Positions 17,380-33,750 are shown, counted from the stretch's first letter. The stretch: DNA of 40,463 bases from Candidatus Nitrosopumilus sp. (GCA_029861345.1 JAOTZM010000003.1:1-40463); one strand, 5' to 3'. The notes: generated by a model from the sequence alone, not told the origin. A program made the numbers and translations.

Positions 17380-17394
17380 GATGATTTAATCATC
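17380..17394. repeat. palindrome GATGATT-T-AATCATC
   Basis: A 15-bp perfect inverted repeat with a one-base centre lies between the CBS stop and the recombinase start. It overlaps the left copy of the proposed attachment core, and could be a recombinase or regulator binding site. Confidence 0.6.
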
Positions 17395-17398
17395 TACA
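17384..17398. other. candidate attL core (15-bp direct repeat, left copy)
   Basis: ATTTAATCATCTACA is repeated exactly at 33736-33750 in the same orientation. This copy lies between the conserved CBS gene and the recombinase. It also sits 14-28 bp before the recombinase GTG, where a TATA box would be expected (TTTAAT). Assignment as an attachment site is inference from position. Confidence 0.55.
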
Positions 17399-17411
17399 TC
17401 TACAATAGATA

Positions 17412-18689
17412 GTGACTTTATCGCCTCGGTCTTTAAGTAATTCAGAAAAAAACATAGAACAGATGCAAATTCAGAGTACTCAAGACAAGATTACTAGATT
17501 CCTTGAGAGAAAGTTTAGGACATCTCGCAGTTTATCTACAAGAAGAGCTTACAACTCGGCATTAAAAAAATTCATGAAATTCCTAGATGTAAAGTATAAT
17601 CTTGACATAGAATCCCTGTTAAGGCAAATAGAAACAAAACAGACCGACTCAATTGAAGTGCTTGATAGTTTTTACTCATTTTTGGCAGAATACAAACGGG
17701 AAAGTTCAGAGAAAATAGGATACAGCAACCAAACAATTTGCGACTATATCTCGGTAGCAAAGGAGTTTCTAAATGGCGAGGGCTGCAAGATATACAGCGA
17801 GGACATAAAGCAGCGATTCAAGCTTCCCCGTAGAATCTATGTCTATGAGAAAGGACTAACAAAAGAAACCATAAACAGGATAATAAGACTGGCAAATCCC
17901 AAGCTTGCAGCAGTTGTTCTGATTGCCTGTTCCAGCGGAATGAGAATTGGTGAAATAGTACAGCTTCGATTCTCGGATGTTGATTTTACATTAGATCCTG
18001 TCACAATAACTGTTAGGGCAGAGACTACGAAGACCAGAGAGACTAGAATTACCCACATTTCATCTGAGGCTGCCAGTGCTTTGAAGGATTATCTTTCAAG
18101 AAAGAAAAGTTCTACAAAAAATGAAGAGTATCTGTTTTTACTACAACATGAAGACAGATTAAGGCATCTCAGGGAGAGACTGGCAAAAAATGAGTATAAC
18201 AATAGTGGTTTTCCAAAAACAGATAAGAAAAATATCAGAATTTTAGAATCTAATCTCAAAAATATAACCAGAGAGGAGAGATACGCCAAAAGCGTACTAT
18301 CTACAAATCACAATCTAGAAAAGCAGCTATCCAATCTGATCAAGAACATTCCAGAACTTGATGCAAAAAACGAGAATGGAAGAAACTCTATTCACTTTCA
18401 TGCGTTTCGCGCGTGGTTTAAGACCCAGGTAACTGATGCACACCAGTCAGATTTTGCAGAAGCCCTGATGGGTCACAAGAGTCTAAAATTGCTCTATTAT
18501 AGACAAAATGACAGAGTACGAGCTAAAACATACCATGATGTTGAATACGCAGTTACAATATCAGATACCGAAAAGATTAACAGAGGTTATTCAGATATGC
18601 AAAAGGACAATTCAGAGTTGAGGGGAATTGTAGATTCCCTATCAAGACAATTAAGAAGCCTTGAGCAAAGAATTGAGATAACATCCTAG
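17412..18689 (+). CDS. tyrosine recombinase / integrase
   Basis: The 425-aa protein has an N-terminal SAM-like DNA-binding domain (about 25-120) and a catalytic domain. The active-site set is visible: R178 (GMRIGE), K207 (ETTKTRE), H330-x-x-R333 (HAFR), H355 (LMGHKS) and Y362 or Y363 (LYYRQND). About 85 residues of charged, helical sequence (about 240-325) are inserted between the lysine and the H-x-x-R box, longer than in XerA-type enzymes. A leucine-rich C-terminal helix follows the tyrosine. Start is a GTG at 17412; an ATG at 17463 is possible. It is adjacent to a direct repeat and likely mobilised the region to its right. Confidence 0.92.
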   Translation: MTLSPRSLSNSEKNIEQMQIQSTQDKITRFLERKFRTSRSLSTRRAYNSALKKFMKFLDVKYNLDIESLLRQIETKQTDSIEVLDSFYSFLAEYKRESSEKIGYSNQTICDYISVAKEFLNGEGCKIYSEDIKQRFKLPRRIYVYEKGLTKETINRIIRLANPKLAAVVLIACSSGMRIGEIVQLRFSDVDFTLDPVTITVRAETTKTRETRITHISSEAASALKDYLSRKKSSTKNEEYLFLLQHEDRLRHLRERLAKNEYNNSGFPKTDKKNIRILESNLKNITREERYAKSVLSTNHNLEKQLSNLIKNIPELDAKNENGRNSIHFHAFRAWFKTQVTDAHQSDFAEALMGHKSLKLLYYRQNDRVRAKTYHDVEYAVTISDTEKINRGYSDMQKDNSELRGIVDSLSRQLRSLEQRIEITS

Positions 18690-18699
18690 CGGGATTATC

Positions 18700-18993
18700 A
18701 TGACAGAAACAAATCAAGATCTGTTTACGCTTCAAATGCTAGGCAATGATGCAGAGCGCAGGATTTTCCTGGAGTTGCAAAAAAATGAGATGTCAGGTTA
18801 TGATTTAGTTGATAAAACAAAACTCCCTCAAACAACAGTTTACAGAAAGCTAAAGCATCTTCAAAAGACAGATTTGGTTTTGCCGGTTAGAGTAAAAAGA
18901 ATGTCTCATGAAGTCTTCTGTGATGTCTTGCACTCAAGGATACAAATTGATGTTAGAAACGGAGAGGTAGAGATTACCTACACACCAAAATAA
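18700..18993 (+). CDS. winged-helix DNA-binding protein
   Basis: The 97-aa protein has a helix-turn-helix core (about 16-70: AERRIFLELQKNEMSGYDLVDKTKLPQTTVYRKLKHL) of ArsR/TrmB-like form, followed by a short beta wing (LVLPVRVKRMSHEVFCDV). It starts 10 bp after the recombinase stop and is probably co-transcribed, so it may regulate the element or act as a directionality factor; neither is shown by the sequence. Confidence 0.8.
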   Translation: MTETNQDLFTLQMLGNDAERRIFLELQKNEMSGYDLVDKTKLPQTTVYRKLKHLQKTDLVLPVRVKRMSHEVFCDVLHSRIQIDVRNGEVEITYTPK

Positions 18994-19077
18994 AAAAGAA
19001 AAAGAATCCCCATTTTAAACAGGAAAACATGCTGTGTTGTCATAATGCTTTTCTGCTAAGATCATAAAATAATAGAT

Positions 19078-19860
19078 GTGAGAAAAGATCTAATCACAAT
19101 AACCGGTGTTGGGGTTCCAGTACTAATTATCATGATTGCAATTGGAGGTGGAGGACATTCGCCATCAATTGATTTTGAAGAGGATACTCCCATAATTGAA
19201 GAACCAAAACAAACTGAGTCTACTTACCAAGTAACGCCTAAACCCACACCACCTCAAGATATTATTTCCTCATCACCTCAACTGTCTATTCAATCGTCAT
19301 ATTCATTGCAGGATTGTTCAGGAATTGCACGATGTATCATTGGAAAAGTAACCCAAGTCATTGATGGTGATACAATAAAGGCGGATTCCCAGTCAATAAG
19401 ATTTGCACTGGCATCAGCTCCTGAACTTGATGAATCTGGAGGGATTGAATCCAAGGAACTGATTGAAACTCTTTGCCCTATTGGTTCAACTGTCTTAGTT
19501 GATGAAGATGATGGCCAAACTCAGGGTAGTCATGGCAGAATTTTGGCTGTAATTTACTGCAATGATGTGAATCTCAATGAAGAGTTGTTAGATTCAGGTC
19601 TAGGATATTTAGCTTCTGAATTTTGCGATGATTCTGAATTTGTCTCAACTAAATGGGCAAAAAAACATGGATGTCAATACTCTGAACCACAAAGGATAGA
19701 AGTAGATTCTAATTGTGATCCTTCATACCCTGACTTTTGTATTTCTTCACCTCCTCCAGATTTGGATTGCAAAGATATTCCACAAAAAAGATTCACAGTA
19801 TTGCAACCCGATCCTCATAGATTTGATGGAGATAAAGACGGGATAGGGTGTGAAAGTTAG
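19078..19860 (+). CDS. membrane-anchored staphylococcal-nuclease-like protein with Excalibur domain
   Basis: An N-terminal hydrophobic segment (about 5-24) anchors or exports the protein. A Pro/Ser/Thr-rich linker leads to an SNase (thermonuclease) domain at about 85-200, with VIDGDTI (93-99). The catalytic positions are R108, E116 (APELDE) and R154 (HGRILAVIY), equivalent to SNase R35, E43 and R87. The calcium ligand equivalent to SNase D40 appears to be Ser113. The C-terminus (about 228-260) is an Excalibur domain with the Ca-binding D-x-D-x-D-G-x-x-C-E signature (DGDKDGIGCE). It probably degrades extracellular nucleic acid. The start is a GTG at 19078. Confidence 0.88.
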   Translation: MRKDLITITGVGVPVLIIMIAIGGGGHSPSIDFEEDTPIIEEPKQTESTYQVTPKPTPPQDIISSSPQLSIQSSYSLQDCSGIARCIIGKVTQVIDGDTIKADSQSIRFALASAPELDESGGIESKELIETLCPIGSTVLVDEDDGQTQGSHGRILAVIYCNDVNLNEELLDSGLGYLASEFCDDSEFVSTKWAKKHGCQYSEPQRIEVDSNCDPSYPDFCISSPPPDLDCKDIPQKRFTVLQPDPHRFDGDKDGIGCES

Positions 19861-19967
19861 AGGTCTTTTTGTTTTGGTAACTGTGTTTGATTGTCAAGTT
19901 CTGCATCAGGCAATTCATGAATTACAATTCCACAATAGTCGTTTTGTAATGCGGGAGCTTCACCCAT
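19857..19967 (-). CDS. possible 36-aa ORF or gene remnant
   Basis: This minus-strand ORF reads MGEAPALQNDYCGIVIHE and onward to a stop that overlaps the nuclease stop by a few bases. Its composition looks protein-like rather than random, and three residues (DSC) continue upstream before a stop. It may be a tiny protein or the C-terminal remnant of a lost gene. I do not recognise a family. Confidence 0.3.
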   Translation of the reverse strand: MGEAPALQNDYCGIVIHELPDAELDNQTQLPKQKDL

Positions 19968-20069
19968 ACACGAATCTCATCATGTGATAATCACCTCACT
20001 GAAAATTCTAATCAATATTCTTAGAGATTTGTTATATCAACTAAGAAAAGTATTTAGAAAAAAGAAAAA

Positions 20070-22043
20070 CTAGTTTACTGTTGAATCATAAATTGGGCCA
20101 TCATCAATTGGGGTTGATTTTTTGTTGTGTGGCACGCCAACTGTGACTTCACCTGAACACATTCCGCCATTTCCATCGTCAGCTGTAAATCCAATGTGGT
20201 ATACTCTGCCATTCTCATTTCCTGATCTTTCGGCTCTTACTTGTGCAGTGTCAGTTCCTATTCCCGCACCATCAGGCGATGTTTTTCCTGAGCCTTTTCC
20301 GCTGACTGCTTCGTCTTGGAATATTGAATCTATTGTAATGGCAATGTCATCTCCGTCAGAGTCTGTTACTCCTAAAATGGAAACATCTACCATCTTGTGA
20401 TTTGGTGGCCATAGCCTTTCAACACTTGGAGAAGATTCTGAACATATAGGTGATGTAATGTTACACTCGATAGGCTGATTTCCATTAATTGGATTGCCAG
20501 TTATTGTACCTGGGTTTCCAGAGGGACAGTTGTCAATGGTTCCATCGTTGTTGATGAAGCCGCCTTCGTTGTCGATGAAGCTATTGTTGTTTATGAAGCC
20601 ATTGTTGTTTATGGTGCCGCCGTCGATGAAGGTAGAGATGTTGCCGTTATCTATGGTGCCACCTTCGTTGTTGTTTATGGTGCCGGAGTTATCGATGGTG
20701 CCGTTGTTGTTGATGGTGCCGCCGTCGTTGGTGATTTCGCCGGAGTTGTTGATGGTGCCGCCTTCGTTGTTGTCAATAATGCCTTCTGCACCGAAACCGT
20801 TGTTGTTACTGATAATAGTGCCGGAGTTGTTGATGGTACCGGAGTTGTTGATGACGCCGCCGTTGTTGTTGATGGTGCCTTCGTTGGTAATATCGCCGCC
20901 TTCGTTGTTATTGATGAAACCATTGCTGTTGAGGAGGCCATGGTTGGTAATATCGCCTTTGTTGTTTATGGTACCGCCGAAGTCGTCGGTGCCGCTGTTG
21001 TCGATGGTGCCATTGTTATAGATGGTACCGCCGATGTTGTTGTTAATGGTGCCGTCAATGTTGTTGTTGGTAATAGTGCCATTCAAGTCGTTGTTTATGG
21101 TGCCGTTGTTTTCGATAGTGCCGTCATTATTGATGGTGCCTCTGAAGATGGGATTGGTACAGAAATTCCCGGTGGGGATATCACAGAAGTTGTTGATGGT
21201 GCCGTCTTCTTTGTTGTTGATGGTGCCGGAGTTGGTGTTGTTAATAATGCTGATATTGTTGTTGATGGTGCCGGAGTTGTTGATGGTGCCGGAGTTGTTG
21301 ATGTGGGTATCGTCAAAATTATCTATGGTGCCACTGTTATCGATGGAGCCAAAGTTGTTGATGGTACTAGCGACGTTGTCGATGGTGCCATTGTTTTCGA
21401 TGTGGCCGTCGTTGTCGATGGTGCCTAACCTGTTGATGATGGTGCCGGAGTTGTTGATGGTGCCGGAGTTGTTGAGGACAAATTCGATGAAGATGGTGCC
21501 ATTGTTTTCGATGTGGCCGTCGTTGATGATGGTGGCGCCGAAGGTATCTATGAGGCCGTTGTTGATGATGGTGCCGGAGTTAGTTATGAGGCTTTGACTG
21601 AAGATGTCGCCTTCGTTGTTGATGGTGCCGGAGTTGTTAATGAGACCGTCGGGGTTGCTACCTATGGAGCCACCTTCGTTGTTGTTTATGGTGCCGGCGT
21701 TGTTGATGGTGCCGGCGTTGATGAAGATGGAACCGGAGTTGTTAATGGTACCGTCTTCGTTGTTGTTAATGGTACCGTCGTTGTTGATGACGGTGCCGGA
21801 ATTGTTAATGAGACCGTTGTTGACAATCTCGCCTTCGTTGTCAATGGTGATCCCAGAATCAACTGTCAGTGTAACACCAGGATTGACAGTCCATGTCTCA
21901 CCATTTGCAATTATTTCATCAGTAGTTATTGTAGTATCTGTGGTAAATGTCATTGATGCTGCATGAGCTTGCTGATCAAAACTTGAAAAGCCAAGAACAG
22001 CAGTTATTACAATTATTAAAGTCAGTATAATTTTATTTTTCAA
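20070..22043 (-). CDS. secreted Asn-rich repeat protein (probable beta-solenoid) with C-terminal beta-sandwich domain
   Basis: The 657-aa protein starts with a signal peptide (cleavage near AHA at about 28). Residues about 60-530 are an almost uninterrupted array of short degenerate repeats built on G-T-I-N-N-x-G/S-G-x-I, with Ile at regular intervals; this resembles a parallel beta-helix whose rungs are stacked by Asn ladders. The last 120 residues form a different domain with LWPPNHKMVDVSI, VTDSDGDDIAITIDSI and HIGFTADDGNGGMCSGEVTVGVPHN, an Ig/cadherin-like module seen at the ends of secreted proteins. The repeat DNA is far richer in G+C than the rest of the window. Start is a TTG with a TATA-like box about 26 bp upstream. 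It is probably a surface or matrix protein; no enzyme motif is seen. Confidence 0.85.
   Translation of the reverse strand: MKNKIILTLIIVITAVLGFSSFDQQAHAASMTFTTDTTITTDEIIANGETWTVNPGVTLTVDSGITIDNEGEIVNNGLINNSGTVINNDGTINNNEDGTINNSGSIFINAGTINNAGTINNNEGGSIGSNPDGLINNSGTINNEGDIFSQSLITNSGTIINNGLIDTFGATIINDGHIENNGTIFIEFVLNNSGTINNSGTIINRLGTIDNDGHIENNGTIDNVASTINNFGSIDNSGTIDNFDDTHINNSGTINNSGTINNNISIINNTNSGTINNKEDGTINNFCDIPTGNFCTNPIFRGTINNDGTIENNGTINNDLNGTITNNNIDGTINNNIGGTIYNNGTIDNSGTDDFGGTINNKGDITNHGLLNSNGFINNNEGGDITNEGTINNNGGVINNSGTINNSGTIISNNNGFGAEGIIDNNEGGTINNSGEITNDGGTINNNGTIDNSGTINNNEGGTIDNGNISTFIDGGTINNNGFINNNSFIDNEGGFINNDGTIDNCPSGNPGTITGNPINGNQPIECNITSPICSESSPSVERLWPPNHKMVDVSILGVTDSDGDDIAITIDSIFQDEAVSGKGSGKTSPDGAGIGTDTAQVRAERSGNENGRVYHIGFTADDGNGGMCSGEVTVGVPHNKKSTPIDDGPIYDSTVN
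20540..21850. repeat. GC-rich degenerate short tandem repeats encoding TINN-type units
   Basis: The plus strand repeats variants of GTTGTTGATGGTGCCG at irregular multiples of three. Because the unit avoids stop codons, long spurious frames open on both strands. The array coincides with the solenoid part of the minus-strand surface protein gene. Confidence 0.85.
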
Positions 22044-22063
22044 TATATGCCAGTATGATATGA

Positions 22064-22072
22064 GACATTTAA
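22064..22072 (-). promoter_or_regulatory. TATA-like box of the Asn-repeat protein gene
   Basis: The minus strand reads CTTAAATGT about 25 bp before the TTG at 22043, which supports that start. Confidence 0.35.
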
Positions 22073-22184
22073 GACAAATAGCACATTATCATAGTTGACA
22101 CCCCTAAATACGAAAAAGAGTGGATAGTTAGAGGAGTCTCATTTTCAATACACAATATCTTGTTGTCTATTTTGACATTTGAAA

Positions 22185-22346
22185 TTAACTATGGGTATAG
22201 AAGATCTTTTTAAGTCCAACAATTACAATTGTAGGAGCTACAAAGTACATTCCTATATTGAGTAAAATCAGACTAACTCGATATATCAAAACTTCTTGAT
22301 CAGAGGACATGTCCACATAATTTAGAATTGAAAGACTAGAAATCAT
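22185..22346 (-). CDS. small membrane protein, 53 aa
   Basis: The product has a polar N-terminus and one hydrophobic segment (about 20-43, VLIYRVSLILLNIGMYFVAPTI) followed by a basic end (GLKKIF). An ATTTAA box about 25 bp upstream supports the ATG at 22346 rather than a TTG further out. No family is recognised. It lies between two secreted-protein genes. Confidence 0.45.
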   Translation of the reverse strand: MISSLSILNYVDMSSDQEVLIYRVSLILLNIGMYFVAPTIVIVGLKKIFYTHS

Positions 22347-22587
22347 TGGAGTATTAGAAGGGTTGATTAAATGTGAACTGTAGAACAATTATTTTTTGAC
22401 AAGAAATTATCCTTATCCACCTCCACATCTAAAATCAGATACATTAGAATATTCAAGACAATTAAAAAGTAACGACAAGTCTGAAGTTCTTTCTAAAGCA
22501 TTAACTGATAAAAACACATGCAGTTGTTTTAGAAAATATATAGACAAATCTCCAAATGTCACAAGAAACCATGAATTGAATTAAACG

Positions 22588-23913
22588 TTATTCTAGTGAA
22601 TGTCTTTGAAAAAATTCCCATATTTGATCATTTGAAATATCATAGGTGACATCACCCACTATTGAATTATACCTATCATAGAGTGCACCTGTCTTGAAAG
22701 GATCTATCCCGCTTGGCCAAGTATGTCCAGCATTGTTACTTGTACATAACATGACTTCAGAATTATCAGCACAATTATCAAAAGTTGTACATGTAACATC
22801 TCCCTTTTCGTAAGTTATTTGAGATTCTGTAGAACAACTGTTCCTTTTTATCCAATCATTAGTTATAGTATTAATTGATGTACATGCATATTTGCCAACA
22901 TCTGGGCCAAGACCTAAAAATTCTTGATAGCATCCTCCACATTGACCACCTTCATACAATGCACAGGGATCTTTTTTACCATGAATAATCATGGTCGGAA
23001 TAGGATTTGATGGATTACATGAGTAATCGATTCCTACAGGTGCGCCAACAGGTGCGATTGCTGCTATCTTGTTTGGCATGTCACATCCCAGTCTATGAGA
23101 CATTTGTCCCCCCATTGAGAGGCCAGTAGCATAAACTCGTTTCTCATCTATATTGAATTTATTTTTTAGTTCATCAATCATTTTTGAAAAAAACTTTACA
23201 TCATCTTTTTTGGCTGTATTTTTATCAGCATGTCCACCAACCTCACTATTCCAACCAAATAATTCTTTTCCCAAAAATATTATACCAGTACCATACGGAT
23301 AAACAACAATGTATCCGTGTTTATCAGAATGTACATCCATATTGCTACCACTACGCTGTGATTCTCCGTTACCTCCTCCTCCATGTATACTGAACACAAC
23401 TGGTGTAGATTTAATAGCGTCATAAGAAGATGGAACATGGACAAGATATTTTCTTTCCAATTCCTCACTAGTCAGAGAAAACTCATAATCACCAGGACCA
23501 AGAGTCCAATTTGGATTTAATTTATTTATAACAACGTTAGGTGATTTTACAATTTCTTCTTTGTATAGATAAGTAATACCAGTTAGAAAATCTGAATCAC
23601 TTATTTGATTAGATACCCAGAATCCTGCATTATTTTTAATCCATTCAGGGACAATTACTTGCCTATCACTTAGATCATCAGAATCTGAAGAGTCAACTAT
23701 ACTAAGTTCAGCAGCCACTATGATGCCGTTTTTAATCATCCACTCCATGGCGTTGACAAAAGTAACATCATCAATTAGATCTTCGGACCAAAATCCTGCA
23801 GTTTCTTTTATCCATGAAGGAATCAAATCTTCTGCTGCTGAAACATTTACTGAAAATGCTAAACCAATATCTATCAGAAATATAAGACTAATTATGGCAC
23901 ATACATTATTCAC
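22588..23913 (-). CDS. secreted esterase of the PHB-depolymerase/feruloyl-esterase type with two W-I-K repeats
   Basis: A signal peptide (about 1-27) precedes two copies of a 35-residue module: IPSWIKETAGFWSEDLIDD (31-49) and VPEWIKNNAGFWVSNQISD (88-106). This module is common in secreted proteins of ammonia-oxidising archaea. The catalytic alpha/beta-hydrolase domain (about 150-441) has the oxyanion motif HGGGGNGES, nucleophile S266 in GLSMGG, acid D315 in GKKDPC and histidine H397 in NAGHTWP, matching the LpqC/PHB-depolymerase family. Many cysteines suggest disulfides and action outside the cell. The substrate (polyester, feruloyl or acetyl ester) cannot be told. Start is a GTG. Confidence 0.88.
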   Translation of the reverse strand: MNNVCAIISLIFLIDIGLAFSVNVSAAEDLIPSWIKETAGFWSEDLIDDVTFVNAMEWMIKNGIIVAAELSIVDSSDSDDLSDRQVIVPEWIKNNAGFWVSNQISDSDFLTGITYLYKEEIVKSPNVVINKLNPNWTLGPGDYEFSLTSEELERKYLVHVPSSYDAIKSTPVVFSIHGGGGNGESQRSGSNMDVHSDKHGYIVVYPYGTGIIFLGKELFGWNSEVGGHADKNTAKKDDVKFFSKMIDELKNKFNIDEKRVYATGLSMGGQMSHRLGCDMPNKIAAIAPVGAPVGIDYSCNPSNPIPTMIIHGKKDPCALYEGGQCGGCYQEFLGLGPDVGKYACTSINTITNDWIKRNSCSTESQITYEKGDVTCTTFDNCADNSEVMLCTSNNAGHTWPSGIDPFKTGALYDRYNSIVGDVTYDISNDQIWEFFQRHSLE

Positions 23914-23954
23914 TAACTTCTTTAGACTTGAATGAACTTAAAATTGTCTATAAT

Positions 23955-24167
23955 TTAGAATCTCTTTTTTGCTTCTTTTAGAACTTTGTTTACTTCAAGA
24001 ACAATCTCTGCAAGATGAGTCTTCTCATGTGTACACTTGATTAGCCTGTCAATGAATGCAAGTTTCATCTCATCATTTGTTTCATTTTTTATTTTGGACT
24101 CTAATTGTCTGATAATTCTGTTCAGTCTGCGCCCGTCTTTGTCCAAATCTGTCCAGTTTTGATTCAT
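23955..24167 (-). CDS. small helical protein, 70 aa
   Basis: The sequence is charged and almost wholly helical (WTDLDKDGRRLNRIIRQLESKI...ETNDEMKLAFIDRLIKC...LAEIVLEVNKVLKEAKKRF), like a coiled-coil hairpin. No signal peptide or metal site is seen. I chose the ATG at 24167; a GTG three codons upstream is possible. Function is unknown. Confidence 0.6.
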   Translation of the reverse strand: MNQNWTDLDKDGRRLNRIIRQLESKIKNETNDEMKLAFIDRLIKCTHEKTHLAEIVLEVNKVLKEAKKRF

Positions 24168-24176
24168 TTTTGTCAC

Positions 24177-24541
24177 TTTTTTGTTCCTAATTGTACCTGA
24201 ATATTAGAATTTTCTTGATCAGAGAATAATTTGATTTGTTTAAAGTCACAGTTTAGAGGAATCATTCCATTGAATAAAAGGCCAAGTTTTGGATGCAGAA
24301 CAAGAGAGACTAGGACCATTATGCCCAATGTATTACGAGTGGGACTTTTACAATTCTTCTAGTACATAATACAAACCAGAATATTTCCAGTATGGGATCA
24401 TGACGAGAATATGTAGTGAGTTTAATGGTTATGACTCATAATTTTAGATAGGATTATGAAACTTCACGTTAAACAACTATTATTTTGTACATTGCAATGT
24501 ATTCTATTCATGTTATATATCACAAAAATTGTAGGTACACA
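24177..24541. other. 365-bp region without a supported gene
   Basis: I see only short unconvincing frames, including a 30-codon TTG frame near 24270. It must contain the promoter of the secreted protein at 24542, but no strong TATA box at the right distance stands out. Confidence 0.4.
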
Positions 24542-25060
24542 ATGAATACAAAATTCCTAGCAGGAACTTTCATAGCTGCTACATTGATGATATCCCTTTT
24601 GCCAATAACTTCTTTTGCTGAAGAACCAAAAGAAGATGTAACAATTAGGTATGGCCAAATCAAGGTGGACTATAATAGCTCCAATGGACCCCAAATAGAG
24701 TGTACCGAGTACAGATCTGATACTATATGCAGACTCTTATTTACTGTGACAAACATCGCTGATGACGAAGTCAAGATTACACAGATTGCATTACCTGAGT
24801 ATATCTGCGATGACCCAAACACCAGAATGATAGAAACATGTGAGTATGACAGAAATGTATCGTTTGCTCCAGGACAAAACAAAACCGTTACACAATATCT
24901 CCTTGATGATGATAACATTCCTTTGGATGTTCCTCCTGATCTTGAGGGTCTTGTGGTAAGTGTTGAATTTGAGGTGACTGGCGAAGACGGGGGAAATGAT
25001 CAAACTCCAACAAATACAATCACATCTACAGTACAAATTGTAAGATCTGATGTTCCATAA
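24542..25060 (+). CDS. secreted protein with one beta-sandwich domain, unknown function
   Basis: The 172-aa product has a signal peptide (MNTKFLAGTFIAATLMISLLPITSFA, cleavage about residue 26). The mature part has four cysteines (in QIECTEY, TICRLL, YICDD and ETCEYD) likely paired in two disulfides, and strands typical of an immunoglobulin-like or DUF4352-like fold (LLFTVTNIADDEVKIT). The open frame extends 19 codons upstream to a TTG, but the signal peptide only makes sense from the ATG at 24542. A hairpin terminator follows. Confidence 0.75.
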   Translation: MNTKFLAGTFIAATLMISLLPITSFAEEPKEDVTIRYGQIKVDYNSSNGPQIECTEYRSDTICRLLFTVTNIADDEVKITQIALPEYICDDPNTRMIETCEYDRNVSFAPGQNKTVTQYLLDDDNIPLDVPPDLEGLVVSVEFEVTGEDGGNDQTPTNTITSTVQIVRSDVP

Positions 25061-25082
25061 GCTGAAGCAGACATGTGAGCCA

Positions 25083-25109
25083 ACTAGTTTAGAAACTAGT
25101 AATTTTTTT
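25083..25109 (+). terminator. hairpin plus T-tract terminator
   Basis: ACTAGTTT-AG-AAACTAGT forms a perfect 8-bp stem followed by AATTTTTTTA. It begins 22 bp after the stop of the secreted protein gene, so it is a good transcription terminator by shape. Such hairpins are less usual than plain T-runs in archaea. Confidence 0.65.
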
Positions 25110-25350: not shown

Positions 25351-25351
25351 A

Positions 25352-27026: not shown

Positions 27027-27127
27027 TTTACGTTATGACGTTGAAGAGTGACTATACAAACCTGTCTCTAGTAGTTATGGAGTCGTACAGTTCACAAACG
27101 ATGTCATGTAAAGATCAAAAACATGAA

Positions 27128-27685
27128 TTAATTTTCATTTCTTTTTACAATGTACTTCTTTTTGTCTTCCTCTTTGATTATCTTGAAAGGGGCAATTTTA
27201 CTGGTCAATGATTTAAGATAGTTACGAACTGACTGATGGCTACCATGTCCTGTGTTCTTTTTACATAGATATACAATGGAATCCAAAGCCTCAGAGAATA
27301 GTATACGGCCATCAACAACTATTGTTTCACGCACATATTGTTCGGTTATCTCAAAATTGGACAAGTTTATGGTAATTTCTGTAGAGGGTGAAGATGTATC
27401 CTCATACATTTTCTCTCCCACAAAATTGCGATCCTCATTTGCTCGAAGTTTATCCGTTGCCTTGGTTTGCATATCAAAATCATTTGGCTTCTTGTTATTG
27501 CATGAAAAACATGCTAGAACTAAGTTGTCTATTCGGTTGTCAGCCCTATTGTTGTTCAAATGTTCATAAATACACGTGTGAACTGTGAGAGTTACCTTAC
27601 AATACCAACAAATGAAACCTCCATCTCTTTGAATCAAAATAGGAAGGTATTCTCGTTTGCTTTTTGCAGACAGATGTCGACTCAA
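27128..27685 (-). CDS. HNH endonuclease-like protein
   Basis: The N-terminal 70 residues form an HNH module: zinc-binding C26-x2-C29 (CWYC), H42 in the position of the first catalytic histidine (IYEHLNNNRADNRIDNL), a conserved Asn near 54, and C59-x2-C62 (CFSC). The C-terminal half is a separate domain, possibly winged-helix (SEALDSIVYLCKKNTGHGSHQSVRNYLKSL). Single HNH proteins in mobile regions may be homing or defence nucleases; no partner is seen. Start is a TTG at 27685. The adjacent upstream operon is on the same strand after a 59-bp gap. Confidence 0.82.
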   Translation of the reverse strand: MSRHLSAKSKREYLPILIQRDGGFICWYCKVTLTVHTCIYEHLNNNRADNRIDNLVLACFSCNNKKPNDFDMQTKATDKLRANEDRNFVGEKMYEDTSSPSTEITINLSNFEITEQYVRETIVVDGRILFSEALDSIVYLCKKNTGHGSHQSVRNYLKSLTSKIAPFKIIKEEDKKKYIVKRNEN

Positions 27686-27744
27686 TTAAACATCCTCTAA
27701 AAATGACTCTATGTGAGAGAGAATTTTTAAATAATGAATCCCAA

Positions 27745-28005
27745 TCAATTTACGATAATCCCCCACTGCATGGCTCTGGTCACTCCGTTTAGTGCATCAA
27801 GTACTGCATTCATGTCAAAGTTAGAGGTTGCAGAGTTGTTGTGTTGTTGTCTGATGTGCCACCATAGGGCTGCAGCATTCTTGTAGATTTTGCAGTGCCT
27901 TGGTATCTTTTCCAATAGACAAAAAGGGCATCGCAATCTAATGTTATCATAGCACTGAGAGCAGTAAGCAGCTCGGTCTTTATGTAATTGTTTTTGGCAG
28001 GTCAT
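27745..28005 (-). CDS. zinc-finger-like small protein, 86 aa
   Basis: The N-terminus holds two C-x2-C pairs (CSQC and CPFC) plus further cysteines, and a helix ending WWHIRQQH that supplies an H-x4-H pair. The second half therefore resembles a C2H2 finger with a long loop. It starts in the stop of the 84-aa gene (ATGA overlap), so it is third in a tightly packed three-gene operon. Nucleic-acid binding is likely but unproven. Confidence 0.7.
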   Translation of the reverse strand: MTCQKQLHKDRAAYCSQCYDNIRLRCPFCLLEKIPRHCKIYKNAAALWWHIRQQHNNSATSNFDMNAVLDALNGVTRAMQWGIIVN

Positions 28006-28256
28006 ATGATGAATCCTCCTTTCTCTGGATTGGTGGTGTCACTCTTGGGCCGGTCTACAAGCTTTGGTCCAATGAGTGCTAACTTGTTTGAATTATCTAT
28101 TACAAGATCAAAACTAATCTCCTGTGAGGTTATCTGAAATTGTTGCAAAAGATTACGTGGGAAAATTATAAGATAGTGTTGCTCCTTTAGTTTCAGTTCA
28201 GTGACTAATTCATCTGGAATCAAATGCGATGATAATTTTGCTAAAACTTTTTTCAT
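28002..28256 (-). CDS. 84-aa protein of unknown family, middle gene of a coupled operon
   Basis: The sequence has an N-terminal helix (KKVLAKLSSHLIPDEL), a strand-rich centre (HYLIIFPRNLLQQFQI...ISFDLVIDNSNKLALIGPKL) and a polar C-terminus. The centre recalls an AbrB-type swapped-hairpin layout, but I cannot assign it. It overlaps both neighbours by 4 bp, so the three proteins are probably made together. Confidence 0.65.
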   Translation of the reverse strand: MKKVLAKLSSHLIPDELVTELKLKEQHYLIIFPRNLLQQFQITSQEISFDLVIDNSNKLALIGPKLVDRPKSDTTNPEKGGFII

Positions 28257-28375
28257 TTCTGATCCTCCAAACTGTTTAATAGACTTGCAATAACATCATC
28301 AAAGGTTGCAGCAGACTTCATCTGCTCTAATTTTTCCCAGTTTCTTTTTGAGATTCTAATTGTCTTGTAATCCAT
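28253..28375 (-). CDS. 40-aa ribbon-helix-helix (CopG/VapB-like) protein
   Basis: The minus strand encodes MDYKTIRISKRNWEKLEQM and then a helix containing TFDDVIASLLNSL. A short strand (KTIRIS) followed by two helices with a TFDDVI turn is the classic ribbon-helix-helix DNA-binding pattern of antitoxins and small repressors. The stop overlaps the next ATG (ATGA), making it the first gene of a coupled three-gene operon. No PIN or other toxin domain follows, so an antitoxin role is not supported; autoregulation of the operon is more likely. Confidence 0.75.
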   Translation of the reverse strand: MDYKTIRISKRNWEKLEQMKSAATFDDVIASLLNSLEDQK

Positions 28376-28424
28376 TGTATTTTATTACAAATGGCGATAT
28401 ACTAGCAAGTCGTACATATTTTGA

Positions 28425-28763
28425 ATGAAAAAAATGCCTCAAAAGTTCAAGTGGGATATAATATCAAAACACAATCTAACCAAAGCCCAGAAACAGATCA
28501 TAAAAGACTATTTTGAAAATGGCCCATGTACACGATATGAACTAAGAAAGAAAACCGGCAGACATAGGGGCGAGTCGTACAATCAGAATCTCTACAGGTT
28601 GGTTCATCTAAAGATCCTCAAACATGGAGAACATCTCAAGGAAGCAATGAACATCAAGCAATTTGATTCAAGCATGATAGATGATCCTAGTCTTCGAACA
28701 GCAATAAGAGAAGCCAATAGGAAAAATGATTATTCTCGTCCTGAAGGATTTACAAAGAAGTAG
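28425..28763 (+). CDS. helix-turn-helix protein, 112 aa
   Basis: The central part (LTKAQKQIIKDYFENGPCTRYELRKKTGRHRGESYNQNLYRLVHLKIL) reads as a winged-helix domain. Its basic recognition helix and C-terminus (NRKNDYSRPEGFTKK) fit DNA binding. It is divergent from the RHH operon, with a 49-bp shared promoter. A second methionine three codons in could be the start. Confidence 0.65.
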   Translation: MKKMPQKFKWDIISKHNLTKAQKQIIKDYFENGPCTRYELRKKTGRHRGESYNQNLYRLVHLKILKHGEHLKEAMNIKQFDSSMIDDPSLRTAIREANRKNDYSRPEGFTKK

Positions 28764-28790
28764 TGGGATCATGCCCAGTTACAATTTACT

Positions 28791-29561
28791 TTGGCAAATT
28801 ACAATGACCGCTTTAAGGGCAAGGTTGGTGAATCTGTCTATTCTCTTACAATTTGGGGCATAGTGGTGCATTTACGAAATGAGAAAAAGATTCCTCCTAG
28901 AAGAATTGTTTTTTTTGAAGATAAAGAAAAATCAGACAATCCTAGATCTAGTGTAAGCGACAAGGACTTGGACTTGATGATAAATCATTTTGCAAGTAAT
29001 TTTGACCTTATCTCTAGAAAATGGGATTATTTGCGTAAAAGTAATCCTGGACTAGTTTATGAGAAATTGTTTGATATGTTGCTCTTGGCAAATTACTACT
29101 TTGAAGTTATGAATGCAGAGTTTGAGTTATTTGAAAAAAGCGCACTTGATGACCTTTACTTGAATTTTTTTCTTCCAAACCAAATTCTTCCGAAATATGC
29201 AGAAAAATGGATGTCAACAATAGTGAAAGACAACGAAATTTTGGATTATCTTATTGAATGCTTTGAAGATTTGGGGGAAAACTTCAAGACAAATCAGGAA
29301 ATCATAATGGAATACAAAAAAGCATTAGATGCATCCAGAAAAGGAAGAAAGAGAAAACAGTCAAAGTTTTTTAAAAAAACTGATTTTATTGCTACAAATC
29401 CTGTTAAACATCGAGGGTTCGTAAGCAAAAGTAATTTTGTAGGAAAAGGATATTGGGGATATCCTCTAAGTTATTTTTTGAATAATCTGGATTTTGGACC
29501 AATAAATCACAGAACACAGCTAAGTGCAAATTTTCGAGGGTATCGGAAAAAACGTCGGTAA
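28791..29561 (+). CDS. 256-aa protein of unknown function
   Basis: I do not recognise a family. The N-terminal 70 residues are mixed; the middle (about 70-170) is strongly helical and acidic/aromatic (LVYEKLFDMLLLANYYFEVMNAEFELFEKSALDDLYLNFFLPNQILPKYAEKW in part). The C-terminal 70 residues are very basic (KGRKRKQSKFFKKTD, GYRKKRR) and could bind nucleic acid. The only start is a TTG at 28791, 27 bp after the helix-turn-helix gene on the same strand. Confidence 0.6.
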   Translation: MANYNDRFKGKVGESVYSLTIWGIVVHLRNEKKIPPRRIVFFEDKEKSDNPRSSVSDKDLDLMINHFASNFDLISRKWDYLRKSNPGLVYEKLFDMLLLANYYFEVMNAEFELFEKSALDDLYLNFFLPNQILPKYAEKWMSTIVKDNEILDYLIECFEDLGENFKTNQEIIMEYKKALDASRKGRKRKQSKFFKKTDFIATNPVKHRGFVSKSNFVGKGYWGYPLSYFLNNLDFGPINHRTQLSANFRGYRKKRR

Positions 29562-29727
29562 ACTGCAAAATCATAAAAAGCAAGCAAAAAAACTAGAGAA
29601 ACCACTATTGCAGAAAACTCCTGAACTAAAACAAGTTGAAGAGGTTTGGGAAAGACTGAAAGCAGATGACTGGGAATCCATACACTTTGATATAATTAAA
29701 GGAACAAATTCATTTAGGAAAAAATAA
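29524..29727 (+). CDS. possible 67-aa basic protein overlapping the previous gene
   Basis: This frame starts at a GTG inside the last codons of the 256-aa gene (38-bp overlap) and encodes a Lys-rich N-terminus and an acidic helix (LKQVEEVWERLKADDWES). The clean protein-like composition after the overlap suggests it is translated, either alone or by frameshift from the gene before. Confidence 0.4.
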   Translation: MQIFEGIGKNVGKLQNHKKQAKKLEKPLLQKTPELKQVEEVWERLKADDWESIHFDIIKGTNSFRKK

Positions 29728-29797
29728 GACCTAGATCCACTAGTAGGGATGATTTATGACAAAAAAATTTTTGTACTAGTTTTACCTATATCATACA

Positions 29798-29959
29798 ATG
29801 GAAGAAATAGCTTCCTGTGGATTTGAAAGTCTTAGTTTAATGGGCTTAATTATTGGTGGTATGATAGTTTCTATTGGTTACTCTCTTTTCAAAAATGATA
29901 AATCAAAAATTGAAAAACTAATTAAAATTTCTGAAAAATCAGATAAAAAACTAGCATAG
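29798..29959 (+). CDS. small single-TM protein, 53 aa
   Basis: The ATG frame gives MEEIASCGFESLSLMG followed by a hydrophobic Gly-rich helix (about 14-29, LMGLIIGGMIVSIGYSLF) and a Lys-rich tail (KSKIEKLIKISEKSDKK). The topology is a single membrane helix with a cytoplasmic basic tail. Its function is unknown. Confidence 0.5.
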   Translation: MEEIASCGFESLSLMGLIIGGMIVSIGYSLFKNDKSKIEKLIKISEKSDKKLA

Positions 29960-29991
29960 GGTAATAATAAAACTTAACAGAGAATGATAAT

Positions 29992-30300
29992 CTAATAATT
30001 GATTTGCTTGATTCTTACTTGACTTCCTTTTGATTCCAAATAATGACCCAAAAAATTCTTAAATTGTTCGGCTATTCGAAATCCCAAAGCGCCTTTCATC
30101 ATTCCTGATTTCTCGATTATAGAGAACATCTTGGAACTTATCTGAACATTAAAAAACGTCCAACCTGCCTTTGTAAATGGCTCACTTAACTCATAGGCAT
30201 TTTTTACTTTGCAAGTAATTTCCAATTCATCCATGGCCTTTTTCACAATCTTTATCTCCTTTTCATATTTTCTTGTGCTAAGCTGAAATATTGGATTCAT
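29992..30300 (-). CDS. 102-aa protein of unknown function
   Basis: The protein has two helical parts and central strands (CKVKNAYELSEPF, GWTFFNVQISSKMFSIIEKSG), with no signal peptide or metal site. The ATG at 30300 is clear. No family is recognised. Confidence 0.55.
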   Translation of the reverse strand: MNPIFQLSTRKYEKEIKIVKKAMDELEITCKVKNAYELSEPFTKAGWTFFNVQISSKMFSIIEKSGMMKGALGFRIAEQFKNFLGHYLESKGSQVRIKQINY

Positions 30301-30411
30301 TTAGAATTAATTTTAATTACACTTGTTATGATTTAGGTATCTTGTTTTCTAATGAGTAAAAGACATGTTTTTTATCTTTAAATCAGATAAAGTGTCACTA
30401 AAGTTAATCAA

Positions 30412-30696
30412 ATGAGTGTAACTTGGAGAGAAAGACTGAGCCAAAGGAGGCGGGAGATAGGAATAGGAGGTCCAGAATACGACTACATACAGAGATACAT
30501 CGAGTCCTATTGCTCTGAGGCGGACCGTCTATGTAAGAAAATTGACATGAACAAGACTGTGGATGAGGTAATAGACTCTATGAAAGATGAAAAGTTTGAC
30601 AAGTTTACCAAAGGAGTAATTGGTTCTATTCACAAAAAGAGGGGTTATGATCCTGATGATGACAATAAAAAAGAAACTGCACCCTTGGTTTCATAA
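30412..30696 (+). CDS. 94-aa hydrophilic protein of unknown function
   Basis: An Arg-rich start (WRERLSQRRREIG), helical middle and acidic/basic tail (YDPDDDNKKE) suggest a soluble helical protein. A TTTAAATC box lies about 33 bp before the ATG. No family is recognised. Confidence 0.55.
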   Translation: MSVTWRERLSQRRREIGIGGPEYDYIQRYIESYCSEADRLCKKIDMNKTVDEVIDSMKDEKFDKFTKGVIGSIHKKRGYDPDDDNKKETAPLVS

Positions 30697-30746
30697 TGAT
30701 TTTGTTGAAAAAATTTAGGAATATAATAAAACCATAGAAAAGACCA

Positions 30747-31085
30747 ATGGATAATCAACTGAAAAAAACTATGTCAATAAAGATAAAACGTTTAGATATG
30801 TTCCCAAATCACTTTTTTGGAATTGCTGAGATAAACAGAGAAGGATACAAGATTAACATTCAAGGACAGAGTTTGTTGAGAGAGCAATTAATCAAACTTC
30901 CAATAAAATTTAAAGATGAAAAGGCATTATTACGCTTAAGTGGCATTAATGATGCTTTTTTTGAAGATATTGTAAACTACAAAGGAGAATCAGAATGGAT
31001 AGAGATAGATTCGGATAGAATTTTGTACTATTTGGCAGATCACCAGGACAAAATTGACACCATAGATGTTTTTAGTAGATTCTAA
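30747..31085 (+). CDS. 112-aa protein of unknown function
   Basis: The protein is a mixed alpha/beta sequence (SIKIKRLDMFPNHFFGIAEI, GYKINIQGQSLLREQLIKLP) without recognisable motifs. It follows the 94-aa gene by 50 bp on the same strand and may be co-transcribed. Confidence 0.5.
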   Translation: MDNQLKKTMSIKIKRLDMFPNHFFGIAEINREGYKINIQGQSLLREQLIKLPIKFKDEKALLRLSGINDAFFEDIVNYKGESEWIEIDSDRILYYLADHQDKIDTIDVFSRF

Positions 31086-31656
31086 ACTGTTTTTGTTTTC
31101 CTAAAAGAATCTATAATTTTATCAAGTATGCAAATATGAAACAGATATCTTGGTTTCATAAGTTAAAAATTATTCGTCAAATGGCTAGTGATCAAAAGAT
31201 CATTCGATCACTAACTATGAAGTCATCCCATTATACTATTGGTTGGGATATAAAAGACCATGTAGAATAAAATCAAACAAATGTTCATAATTATCACAAT
31301 ACTTTTTTTATCTCACGGTAGCATGTTCTCTACAGATGGTAATCAACTAGTAAAAACATCAATGATACCTAAGTTGATGTTGGGACCAGAACATAGAGTT
31401 GTCACCAGATAACTACTTGGTTTTGATTACTATCTATATTCATCTAATAATAAATCACAACTCTTCATTTTCCTGTGCAATACTCAACAAGACCTACTGC
31501 ATAATATGCATCATGAGAGAGCTCATACGTATCTGTAATTTAGATTCTGGAAAAGAATTGGTTATGTAATATTCTAAAAAAGGTATAATGAAAGTTTCGT
31601 GATAGTAGCATCGACAGATTTAAAAAATACAAGATGGGTTGACAAAGAAAGAAGAA
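31086..31656. other. gene-poor stretch
   Basis: No full-length gene is visible in about 570 bp. A 44-codon ATG frame (31136-31270, starting MKQISWFHKLKIIRQM) is the only plus-strand candidate, and an inverted repeat TGATC/GATCA occurs near 31187-31208. The part near 31463-31610 looks like a decayed gene on the minus strand, listed separately. Confidence 0.5.
31463..31610 (-). pseudogene. decayed gene fragment with frameshift
   Basis: On the minus strand, one frame reads CYYHETFIIPFLEYYITNS then FPESKLQI; after a one-base shift near 31540 the protein-like reading continues ITDTYELSHDAYYAVGLVEY and CTGK before a stop near 31469. Both parts look like one small protein broken by a frameshift, with no intact start. 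I do not recognise the family. Confidence 0.4.
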
Positions 31657-31734
31657 TTATTCTTCATAAAACATCCAGGATAATCCTTGAATGTCTTCCC
31701 ATGTTGGTTTTGATTGGTTATCGTTATTTGTCAT
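31657..31734 (-). CDS. possible 25-aa microprotein
   Basis: The ATG frame starts MTNNDNQSKPTWEDIQG and ends with an aromatic/acidic C-terminus (MFYEE). It is preceded at 25 bp by CTTTTAAAG (31755-31763, minus strand), which is a good archaeal TATA box for a leaderless message. Composition and promoter argue for real expression, but length limits confidence. Confidence 0.4.
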   Translation of the reverse strand: MTNNDNQSKPTWEDIQGLSWMFYEE

Positions 31735-31754
31735 GATTTGGATATACAAAATTG

Positions 31755-31763
31755 CTTTAAAAG
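31755..31763 (-). promoter_or_regulatory. TATA-like box CTTTTAAAG before the microprotein
   Basis: The palindromic CTTTTAAAG is centred about 25 bp before the ATG at 31734, in the 140-bp gap between this ORF and the phasin-like gene. Confidence 0.45.
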
Positions 31764-31874
31764 ACTCGCGAATGATTTGTTCAGATCAATGATCTATTTT
31801 TTAGGTATTTTTTCTTGCAACAATATACAGATGGTTGATTAGATATGAAAATAAAAAAAGAAAAATCAATTACA

Positions 31875-32288
31875 CTAGTTTTTTAGTGTAAATGGGGTTA
31901 TCCACGATTGGATTATGTTTCTATTCAATTCAACAAATGCGTTTACGTTATCGCCGTAGGTCTTGATATTTTGTACGGTTGCATCAATTGTGGTTCTTAC
32001 CAATTGATTGTTTACAGTGGTTGCTTGAACAATTTGCTTGTTGGCATCAACAATTGCAGTCTTTGCAGCACTTGGAATATCAGTTGTGATTCCAGCTTTT
32101 GTTGCAAATTCTTGTTGCATAGATACTGAAGCATCGATTGTTTTCTCACATGTACTCATACATTCTTTTTGCAAGTCTGTTATGGATTGAAAATACTGTG
32201 GGGTAATTTTTGAAATATTCTCAAAGTATTTTTGAACATTTTGCTTGTATATTGAATATACATTGCTTGATTGAGTTTGAGTGCTCAT
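31875..32288 (-). CDS. phasin-like protein
   Basis: The 137-aa protein is all helical, rich in Gln, Asn and Thr, and reads like a phasin: YKQNVQKYFENISKITPQYFQSI, then an amphipathic repeat region (DASVSMQQEFATKAG, IVQATTVNNQLVRTTIDATVQNI) and a final helix. Phasins coat polyhydroxyalkanoate granules, and marine ammonia oxidisers carry PHA synthase genes. A TATATATA box 25 bp away favours the ATG at 32288 over one two codons upstream (32294). A divergent regulator and an alpha/beta hydrolase lie next door. The assignment rests on composition and pattern, not on a catalytic motif. Confidence 0.6.
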   Translation of the reverse strand: MSTQTQSSNVYSIYKQNVQKYFENISKITPQYFQSITDLQKECMSTCEKTIDASVSMQQEFATKAGITTDIPSAAKTAIVDANKQIVQATTVNNQLVRTTIDATVQNIKTYGDNVNAFVELNRNIIQSWITPFTLKN

Positions 32289-32305
32289 ACCCATTCATTG
32301 TAACA

Positions 32306-32358
32306 CCAATATATATACCATTGGTAATGAGTGGTAATAGTTGGTTAATAATACCAAT
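32306..32358. promoter_or_regulatory. divergent promoter with inverted repeats (candidate operator)
   Basis: The 100-bp space between the phasin-like gene and the regulator holds AATATATATA (32308-32317, TATA box for the leftward gene) flanked by CCAAT (32306-32310) and ATTGG (32320-32324). A second inverted pair is ATTGGTA (32320-32326) and TACCAAT (32352-32358). These could be operator half-sites for the adjacent winged-helix protein. Confidence 0.45.
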
Positions 32359-32360
32359 CT

Positions 32361-32370
32361 ATATAATATA
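32361..32370 (+). promoter_or_regulatory. TATA-like box of the winged-helix regulator gene
   Basis: ATATAATATA lies about 24 bp before the ATG at 32389. It shows that the in-frame TTG at 32341, which is upstream of the box, is unlikely to be the start. Confidence 0.5.
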
Positions 32371-32388
32371 GGATTTGATACACTTTTC

Positions 32389-32670
32389 ATGGTATTATAC
32401 AGGACAAGCACGCAGATTATAGGAGACCTTCTGACTGCCACTGAAGAGTCAGGACAAGAAGGAATCAAAACAACTGCCCTAATTTCTAAGGCCAATTTAC
32501 CACATTCTAGGCTATCAAAATTATTACCAAATTTGATTGGGACTGGTTTGATTAACAAAATTGAGTTTGATGGAAAACATACCTTTGTGATTACCCAAAA
32601 AGGGAGACAGTACTTGGAGTCATACCAGAAATTTTCTACAATTGCAGAATCCTTTGGGCTAGAGCTCTAG
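32389..32670 (+). CDS. winged-helix transcriptional regulator
   Basis: The 93-aa protein begins MVLYRTSTQIIGDLL, continues with a helix-turn-helix (IKTTALISKANLPHSRLSKLLPNLIGTGLI) and a wing (NKIEFDGKHTFVITQKGRQYL), and ends with a helix that may dimerise. This layout (Y-R-S/T-x-x-x-I-I start, TKGxxYL end) is the common small winged-helix type of ammonia-oxidising archaea. It diverges from the phasin-like gene and precedes the hydrolase by 22 bp, so it may control both. Confidence 0.8.
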   Translation: MVLYRTSTQIIGDLLTATEESGQEGIKTTALISKANLPHSRLSKLLPNLIGTGLINKIEFDGKHTFVITQKGRQYLESYQKFSTIAESFGLEL

Positions 32671-32692
32671 AATTTGTTGAATAAGAAGAACA

Positions 32693-33538
32693 ATGATTGA
32701 AAAATTTGTCCAAGTGGGTTCTCATAAAATTCGTTATATTGAATCTGGTAGTAGTTCAAAAAGAGTACTTGTATTAGTTCATGGTCTTGGTGCATCTGCA
32801 GAAAGGTGGGAATATGTAATGCCCGAATTGAGCAAGAAATATCGAGTAATAGCGCCTGATCTGCTAGGATTTGGATATAGTGATAAACCCTTGCTAGATT
32901 ATACGCCACAATTTTTTGCAAAATTCCTCTCTGATTTCCTAGAAACTATTGGTATCAGCCATAGTAGTATGATTGGCTCATCCCTAGGTGGCCAAATCGT
33001 TTCAGAATATGCTATAACATATCACAAGAAAACAGAAAATATTATCTTGGTTTCACCAGCAGGAGTTATGAAATATCCTACTCCTGCTCTAGAAGCGTAT
33101 ATTGCAGCTGCACTCTATCCTAGTCGAGATAGTGCTCACAATGCTTTTCAGATGATGTCAGGTGTTGATGAGAAAATTCCATCTCACATAATAGACGATT
33201 TTATAAAAAGAATGTCACTGCCAAACGCAAAGGCGGCCTTTTTATCAACTCTCTTGGGTTTGAAAAATTCAAGTACAATTAACCATAGACTTGCTAATAT
33301 TTCGGTACCTGCTTTGGTTATTTGGGGGGAAAACGATCCTGTTATTCCGATAAAATATGCAAATGATTTTGTCACATCCTTAAAAGATTGTCAATACATT
33401 GAGATGCAAAATTGTGGTCATACACCGTACGTTGAAGATCCGAAAAGATTTGCAGATAATATACTGGATTTCTTAGATAATAGAGTACTAGTTTTGTGTA
33501 TGAAAAAATTCATGAGAAAACATAAAATCAGATTGTAA
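32693..33538 (+). CDS. alpha/beta-hydrolase
   Basis: The 281-aa cytoplasmic protein has the oxyanion motif HGLGASAERW (30-39), nucleophile S97 in GSSLGG, acid D215 in WGENDPV and H243 in NCGHTPY, the full catalytic triad of the MhpC/haloperoxidase-like family. It is 22 bp downstream of the winged-helix gene and close to the phasin-like gene; a role in PHA or ester turnover is possible, but the family covers many substrates. The last 20 residues are basic and extend beyond the usual end. Confidence 0.88.
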   Translation: MIEKFVQVGSHKIRYIESGSSSKRVLVLVHGLGASAERWEYVMPELSKKYRVIAPDLLGFGYSDKPLLDYTPQFFAKFLSDFLETIGISHSSMIGSSLGGQIVSEYAITYHKKTENIILVSPAGVMKYPTPALEAYIAAALYPSRDSAHNAFQMMSGVDEKIPSHIIDDFIKRMSLPNAKAAFLSTLLGLKNSSTINHRLANISVPALVIWGENDPVIPIKYANDFVTSLKDCQYIEMQNCGHTPYVEDPKRFADNILDFLDNRVLVLCMKKFMRKHKIRL

Positions 33539-33712
33539 GATATTTTTAGCCATAACAAATTGTGCCTGTTTTAGGCTCAGTAGACAAATTCTTTTGCAAT
33601 TATTGTTTAAGGACATAAGGAAATAATGTATTGTTTTATCTGGCAAACAATCGAAAATTGTTTAGATCAATATTAAATTAGCATATTCTAGGATAAATTT
33701 CTCCAGGTAGAT

Positions 33713-33725
33713 GTGATAAAATCAC
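33713..33725. repeat. small palindrome near the right island edge
   Basis: GTGAT-AAA-ATCAC lies 11 bp inside the right copy of the 15-bp direct repeat. It may be a binding site for the recombinase, a terminator element, or chance. Confidence 0.35.
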
Positions 33726-33735
33726 TATAAAGTTT

Positions 33736-33750
33736 ATTTAATCATCTACA
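33736..33750. other. candidate attR core (15-bp direct repeat, right copy)
   Basis: ATTTAATCATCTACA covers the stop and the last four codons (V-D-D-stop region) of the 94-aa gene on the minus strand, and equals 17384-17398. Integration into the 3' end of a gene, leaving the gene intact, is the usual habit of tyrosine recombinases. Confidence 0.55.

Follow-up and report, generated by a model that had tools for sequence, protein, structure and literature searches.

An integrated element of the cryptic kind at the convergent stop codons of MTAP and a 94-aa core gene in a Nitrosopumilus-type archaeon

The stretch of DNA analyzed here, 40,463 nucleotides from Candidatus Nitrosopumilus sp. (GCA_029861345.1, JAOTZM010000003.1:1-40463; hereafter, the window), carries between positions 17384 and 33735 what we read, with high confidence, as a 16.35-kb element of the cryptic-integrated-element kind, integrated site-specifically by a classical (that is, not self-splitting) archaeal tyrosine recombinase and accompanied by a second, 673-bp insert that appears to lie backward at the same site and holds a gene for a CBS-domain protein. 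An earlier note on the window had proposed a recombinase element bounded by two copies of an attachment (att) site and terminating on the right where a 94-aa gene has its 3' end, and sister elements in related genomes, which share both the ends and the integrase, bear this out.

The target of the integration is defined by the right flank. The 94-aa core gene (33738-34022, minus strand) is present in 84 of 95 congeneric genomes, and its 3' side was inspected in 74 congeneric genomes, the source genome among them. In 66 of the latter it is directly convergent with the gene for S-methyl-5'-thioadenosine phosphorylase (MTAP), the stop codons of the two genes overlapping (as in GAATTTTAGTCATCAACAAAGG), and this junction, with the sequence TTTARTCATC, constitutes the empty site, attB; in two of the 66 (G072 and G025; labels of this type, with G, C and L, are our own for genomes, contigs and loci) the junction is slightly longer. 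MTAP lies in the window at 15916-16710 on the plus strand, matches its NCBIfam model above the cut-off, is conserved at the locus in relatives and is the true left flanking gene, its stop codon forming the left half of attB. The CBS gene had been taken for the last conserved gene on the left, and an empty site had been predicted in which it would converge with the 94-aa gene; the empty site does exist, but with MTAP in that position, and the CBS gene occurs at this locus in none of the 66 genomes. Measured against the empty site, the insertion comprises positions 16711-33737, 17,027 bp in total, and thus exceeds the stretch between the two repeats that the earlier note had taken as its limits. 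The site is occupied in the other eight of the 74 genomes (the source genome, G013, G021, G083, G090, G092, G107 and G108) and, as judged from these sequences, the MTAP/94-aa junction is an integration hot spot. No tRNA is found in the window as an integration target, and a literature search for MTAP as an archaeal integration target returned no report.

The ends of the main element share a common organization with those of its relatives. The 15-mer ATTTAATCATCTACA is found in exact copies on the same strand at 17384-17398 and 33736-33750, as formerly noted, and no further copy is present anywhere in the 1.74-Mb assembly. The left copy (plus strand) is the attL core, which contains TTTAATCATC and lies next to the recombinase gene, whereas the 94-aa gene has its stop codon within the right copy (plus strand), or attR core. 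Taken alone, this repeat is at chance level, for exact 15-mer repeats at a distance of over 3 kb number 8 in the window, and 20 second-order Markov simulations yield a mean of 4.45 (range 0-11). Hence, it is comparison, by means of the empty sites and the conserved arms, and not the length of the repeat, that decides the case. All intact ends have TTTARTCATC as their common core, and on the element side the core is accompanied by two arms. The left arm, ATAGTGACTTTAT (17409-17421, plus strand), includes the integrase's GTG start codon and is conserved in G083, G092 and G090 and, partly, in G013 and G021, while the 22-bp right arm, ATAAAATCACTATAAAGTTTAT (33716-33737, plus strand), is conserved at all eight occupied sites, where its consensus before the 94-aa gene is ATAAAATTACTATAAAGTTTAT. 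The arms are mutually inverted (left, ATAGTGACTTTAT; right, ATAAAATCACTAT; with the core between them), in the layout expected for a classical archaeal tyrosine recombinase with a short crossover, and they are probably the binding sites of the integrase. A scan of the 95 genomes for the arm-and-core pattern gave 13 matches, every occupied site included, and the reversed control pattern gave none. The exact empty sites in 66 genomes and the conserved arms and core at the eight occupied sites refute the notion of an ordinary strain-variable chromosomal region in which a 15-mer happens to recur near a domesticated recombinase; the repeat itself, being within chance expectation, would agree with such a notion, which we nonetheless consider extremely improbable. 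Base composition is uninformative as a boundary marker, since the comparison of GC content inside and outside the element, suggested earlier, singles out one repeat-rich gene and leaves the interior otherwise not distinctive.

Related genomes provide occupied sites in various states. The closed, single-contig genome G083 carries at the same site a 14.6-kb element with a 15-bp direct repeat, TTTAGTCATCTACAA, in the order MTAP, core, left arm, full-length integrase (75% identical to that of the window), some 13 kb of cargo that is for the most part different, right arm, core and 94-aa gene, and looks like an intact sister element. The integrase gene starts directly behind MTAP in both G092, where it is again full-length and 79% identical, and G090, where it is frameshifted. 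G013 has kept 4.35 kb with a decayed integrase; the remnant in G108 measures 2.6 kb and still includes five cargo genes of the window; and in G021 a remnant of 634 bp comprises both arms and a single gene. The site of G092 is spread over two contigs: on C11 (L177), MTAP is followed by a 7.7-kb integrase element, a right arm with core and a unit bearing a PolB (DNA_pol_B_2) gene; the order on C36 (L157) is right arm with core, a 951-bp unit with a single 204-aa gene, a second right arm with core and the 94-aa gene. By its sequence, this is a tandem arrangement at the MTAP/94-aa site. The array maps to positions 5668-5760 of L177 and 3206-4284 of L157, its two 129-bp right ends are 92% identical, and the left ends in both loci show half of the G-run/C-run palindrome described below.

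The integrase gene (17412-18689, plus strand, GTG start) encodes a protein of 425 aa with the Pfam domains PF00589 (Phage_integrase, E=2.7e-17) and PF02899 (N-terminal SAM-like), no suicidal-integrase domain being among them. Its reading frame is intact and R178, K207, H330, R333, H355 and Y362/Y363 are invariant across six integrase homologues, so that the degraded state contemplated in the earlier note finds no support in this gene. More distant integrases (58-62% identity; G304, G086 and G256) adjoin other genes, suggesting that the MTAP/94-aa site goes with the integrase clade of the window. No close relative was found in the IMG/VR, phage and plasmid collections, and one scan of the GTDB r220 contigs returned the G090 record as the sole close relative.

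Among the types of archaeal tyrosine recombinase defined in a 2021 review (PMC8371274), the enzyme resembles the classical (type II, pNOB8-type) integrases in that its gene remains unsplit after integration and has its att site outside, on the 5' side (the attL core ends at 17398 and the gene starts at 17412), and in its invariant catalytic residues. It differs from them in a core of 15 bp, as compared with 40-50 bp, in the lack of a tRNA target and in having no close relative in the phage, plasmid and IMG/VR collections. With the suicidal SSV/pTN3-type integrases it shares its nature as an archaeal tyrosine recombinase and the proximity of the att site, but that site does not lie inside the gene, no PF16795-type (Phage_integr_3) domain was reported and the open reading frame is whole, all of which sets it apart from that type. 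In a similar vein, the single-gene units that stand in a row beside the integrase element of G092, with the same arm and core, are reminiscent of integron cassette arrays; the integrase of the window, however, scores 34 bits against a cut-off of 265 for the NCBIfam integron integrase, the units are few, and the scan covered the arm-and-core pattern, with no attC-type site shown.

A survey by Krupovic et al. (2019; PMC6563490) describes thaumarchaeal cryptic integrated elements with a median size of 17 kb, integrases and mostly unknown genes, with att repeats of 17 bp in the median over all elements, which integrate into the 3' ends of protein-coding genes, re-use their sites and often have no recognizable replication genes. 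The element of the window resembles them in its integrase beside one att site, short repeats, near-median size, host lineage, target at the 3' end of a protein gene, cargo largely of unknown function and tandem re-use of the site. Compared with the empty site, it is an insertion (of 74 genomes, 66 are empty and 8 occupied), it combines an intact recombinase with the 15-bp core at both ends, and it shows no hallmark gene of viruses, casposons, conjugative elements or insertion sequences, the proteins scanned giving no match to capsid, Cas1, VirB or transposase families. It fits the class in every feature that could be tested, and it is the target site that sets it apart: the class is already known, but the survey's text does not list MTAP as a target gene. 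Also unlike the elements of the survey, the core here serves two convergent genes with overlapping stop codons and the neighboring insert has an inverted arm.

Some observations weigh against the interpretation as a site-specifically integrated element with a second, backward insert. The window is one whole contig of a 1.74-Mb assembly in 192 contigs; family scans recognized no replication, capsid or conjugation gene among the proteins scanned, in agreement with the earlier note as regards replication and capsid genes; searches of 250 family genomes and of IMG/VR turned up neither a joined attP nor a circular form; and the right-hand edge of the 673-bp insert matches the inverted left end weakly. 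The lack of recognizable replication or transfer genes and of an attP joint would suit a fixed, immobile cargo island, that is, an old element that has lost its mobility and is kept for its secreted enzymes and its hydrolase/phasin module, as would the decayed gene remnant at 22185-22388 and the sister remnants of G108 and G021 (2.6 kb and 634 bp, respectively), which retain cargo alone. On the other hand, the reading frame of the integrase is complete and retains every conserved position, the att cores agree exactly over their 15 bp and neither arm is damaged, and we regard the fixed island as a real possibility, albeit one we lean against. It seems quite improbable that the element is instead a virus or a replicating plasmid in integrated form, with structural or replication genes that have diverged beyond recognition. 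The many small open reading frames without a family, the PHROG matches of its SNase- and HNH-like nucleases, and the frequent lack of recognizable replication genes in cryptic elements (PMC6563490) would be compatible with such an origin, but the integrase is unmatched in phage, plasmid and IMG/VR collections, the element has no capsid, portal, terminase, helicase or polymerase match, and the cargo is almost wholly different between sister elements.

For the site-specifically integrated element we envisage a mechanism in which the integrase would recombine the TTTARTCATC core on a circular form of the element with the matching core of the chromosome, located at the overlapping stop codons of the convergent MTAP and 94-aa genes. 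Integration leaves a core at both ends and, since portions of the two stop codons lie within the core, each of the flanking genes retains its stop; the two inverted arms, situated on either side of the crossover on the element, are the presumable place of integrase binding. Excision is likely, to judge from the intact parts. A circular form would also bring the right-arm sequence TTTATTTA to positions -31 to -24 relative to the integrase start codon, and TATA-like words in neighboring genes peak at -30 to -26. A promoter weight matrix did not converge, and its scores did not separate the circular form from the integrated one; that integration splits a promoter (17409-17421/33716-33741) is thus a possibility that we mention without claiming it.

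The segment between MTAP and the main element (16711-17383, plus strand) makes up the 673-bp extra insert. It is not found at the empty sites and holds the gene for a paired CBS-domain protein (16883-17365, plus strand; Pfam CBS, E=1.5e-31). The right arm recurs in inverted orientation immediately behind the MTAP stop codon (16711-16732, minus strand; ATAAAATCACTGTAAAGTTTAT on that strand), in a copy that agrees with the one at 33716-33737 in 21 of 22 bases and whose match widens to 37 bp at 89% (E=6e-7) with the right end of the G092 element. The other edge, at 17381-17395, is a near-palindrome, GATGATTTAATCATC, resembling two cores that meet in opposite orientation. On the grounds of the inverted arm and this junction, the segment looks like a second, integrase-less mini-element inserted backward; a remnant of a larger inverted element is another possibility. 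In the simplest history, such a unit would have integrated backward at attB first, the main element later entering the core beside it.

Alternatively, the CBS segment might be part of the end of an older element, left behind by a deletion or inversion when the main element integrated. This would be in line with the weak match of its right-hand edge to the inverted left end and with the sole close relative of the CBS gene, a 78% identical homologue in G107 on a contig that bears a Cas1 gene and no match to any other gene of the window. The clean inverted right arm at the MTAP stop and the core-core junction at 17381-17395 argue otherwise, as do the units of 634 bp (G021) and 951 bp (G092) at the same site in two other genomes, and we hold the older-end origin to be plausible, if somewhat doubtful. 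The G107 contig (L113, on C230; region 6320-10566), with its Cas1-like gene (Pfam Cas_Cas1, E=3e-43), is possibly a casposon or CRISPR neighborhood.

The MTAP/94-aa junction might more broadly serve a whole group of single-gene units that lack an integrase (the 673-bp CBS unit, the 634-bp unit of G021, the 951-bp unit of G092 and further arm-bearing units elsewhere in G092 and G036), which would share arm and core with the integrase-bearing elements, be mobilized in trans by the integrase in either orientation and pile up beside it, amounting to a cassette-like capture of genes in Nitrosopumilus-type archaea. We put this forward as a speculative and rather unlikely extension. Two single-gene stretches at other loci end in this same right arm and core, one encoding a TPR protein (L175, G092 C23, 4557-5892) and the other a homologue of the protein encoded at 30412 in the window (L178, G036 C58, 9109-9819), and both are preceded by a palindrome of a G-run and a C-run (GGGGGGATACCATTTTTACAGATAATCTCTAAAAAGGCAATCCCCCC in L175).

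The cargo of the main element begins directly after the integrase with a small winged-helix regulator (ArsR/TrmB-like; 18700-18993, plus strand; weak Pfam and NCBIfam matches), followed by a secreted SNase-like nuclease with an Excalibur-like C terminus (19078-19860, plus strand; weak Pfam matches and a PHROG endonuclease match of E=1.5e-9). The secreted Asn/Thr-rich protein encoded at 20070-22043 (minus strand), known from the open reading frame list and its composition and without a Pfam family, consists of NNGTI repeats and gives rise to the local GC peak. Next to it, 22185-22388 (minus strand) encodes a 67-aa remnant similar to the C terminus of an 860-aa secreted protein of the G013 element (L093, 13614-16196; also L176, 6018-7289), and is probably the decayed gene of the earlier note. 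A secreted esterase (22588-23913, minus strand) lies near the extracellular PHA depolymerase type 1 family (NCBIfam NF050058, 146.8 bits, below the cut-off of 150), and it is followed by a membrane protein without a family in the Pfam and NCBIfam scans (25638-27026, minus strand) and an HNH endonuclease-like protein (27128-27685, minus strand). Two small proteins of 86 aa (Cys/His-rich) and 84 aa (27745-28256, minus strand) form a pair that recurs in the G083 sister (64% and 44% identity, L154) and the G092 element (33% and 47%, L177). The conserved 94-aa passenger protein encoded at 30412-30696 (plus strand) is shared with G108 and G021, in whose copies of the site it belongs to a remnant or mini-unit, and with G036, where a right arm lies next to it.

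At the right end, a module of a phasin-like protein (a reading from sequence, without library support), a winged HTH_45 protein and an alpha/beta hydrolase (31875-33538) recurs at 80-83% identity in the G108 remnant. Most congeners have a chromosomal hydrolase/phasin pair that is about 55-59% (hydrolase) and 40-49% (phasin-like) identical to the copies on the element, which are diverged second copies of it. A defense-system reading of the cargo was rejected, weak matches of HNH and TOPRIM type being the only ones. Among the sister elements, G083 encodes a caspase-TPR protein (L154, 16077-18704) and an OLD-like TOPRIM protein (L154, 7392-8807), and G092 a SIR2-like protein (L177, 10595-12037), which are possibly defense-type genes. 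Outside the element, in-frame repeats occur in two core genes (GGDRRRE in a Nop56-like protein and TEDKPAKK in a 272-aa protein; 6244-6539 and 9947-10425), and the tblastn matches in many relatives end at or skip these regions.

The comparison corrects the boundary between element and host in the window, the CBS gene being a passenger at the site and not part of the host backbone. It delineates a precisely bounded and recurrent integration site in a marine ammonia oxidizer belonging to one of the most abundant archaeal lineages of the ocean, at which empty, intact, decayed, tandem and mini-unit states are all visible in natural genomes, and it makes the att site, the binding of the arms and excision directly testable for a group of archaeal integrases that is unmatched in the virus, phage and plasmid collections searched.

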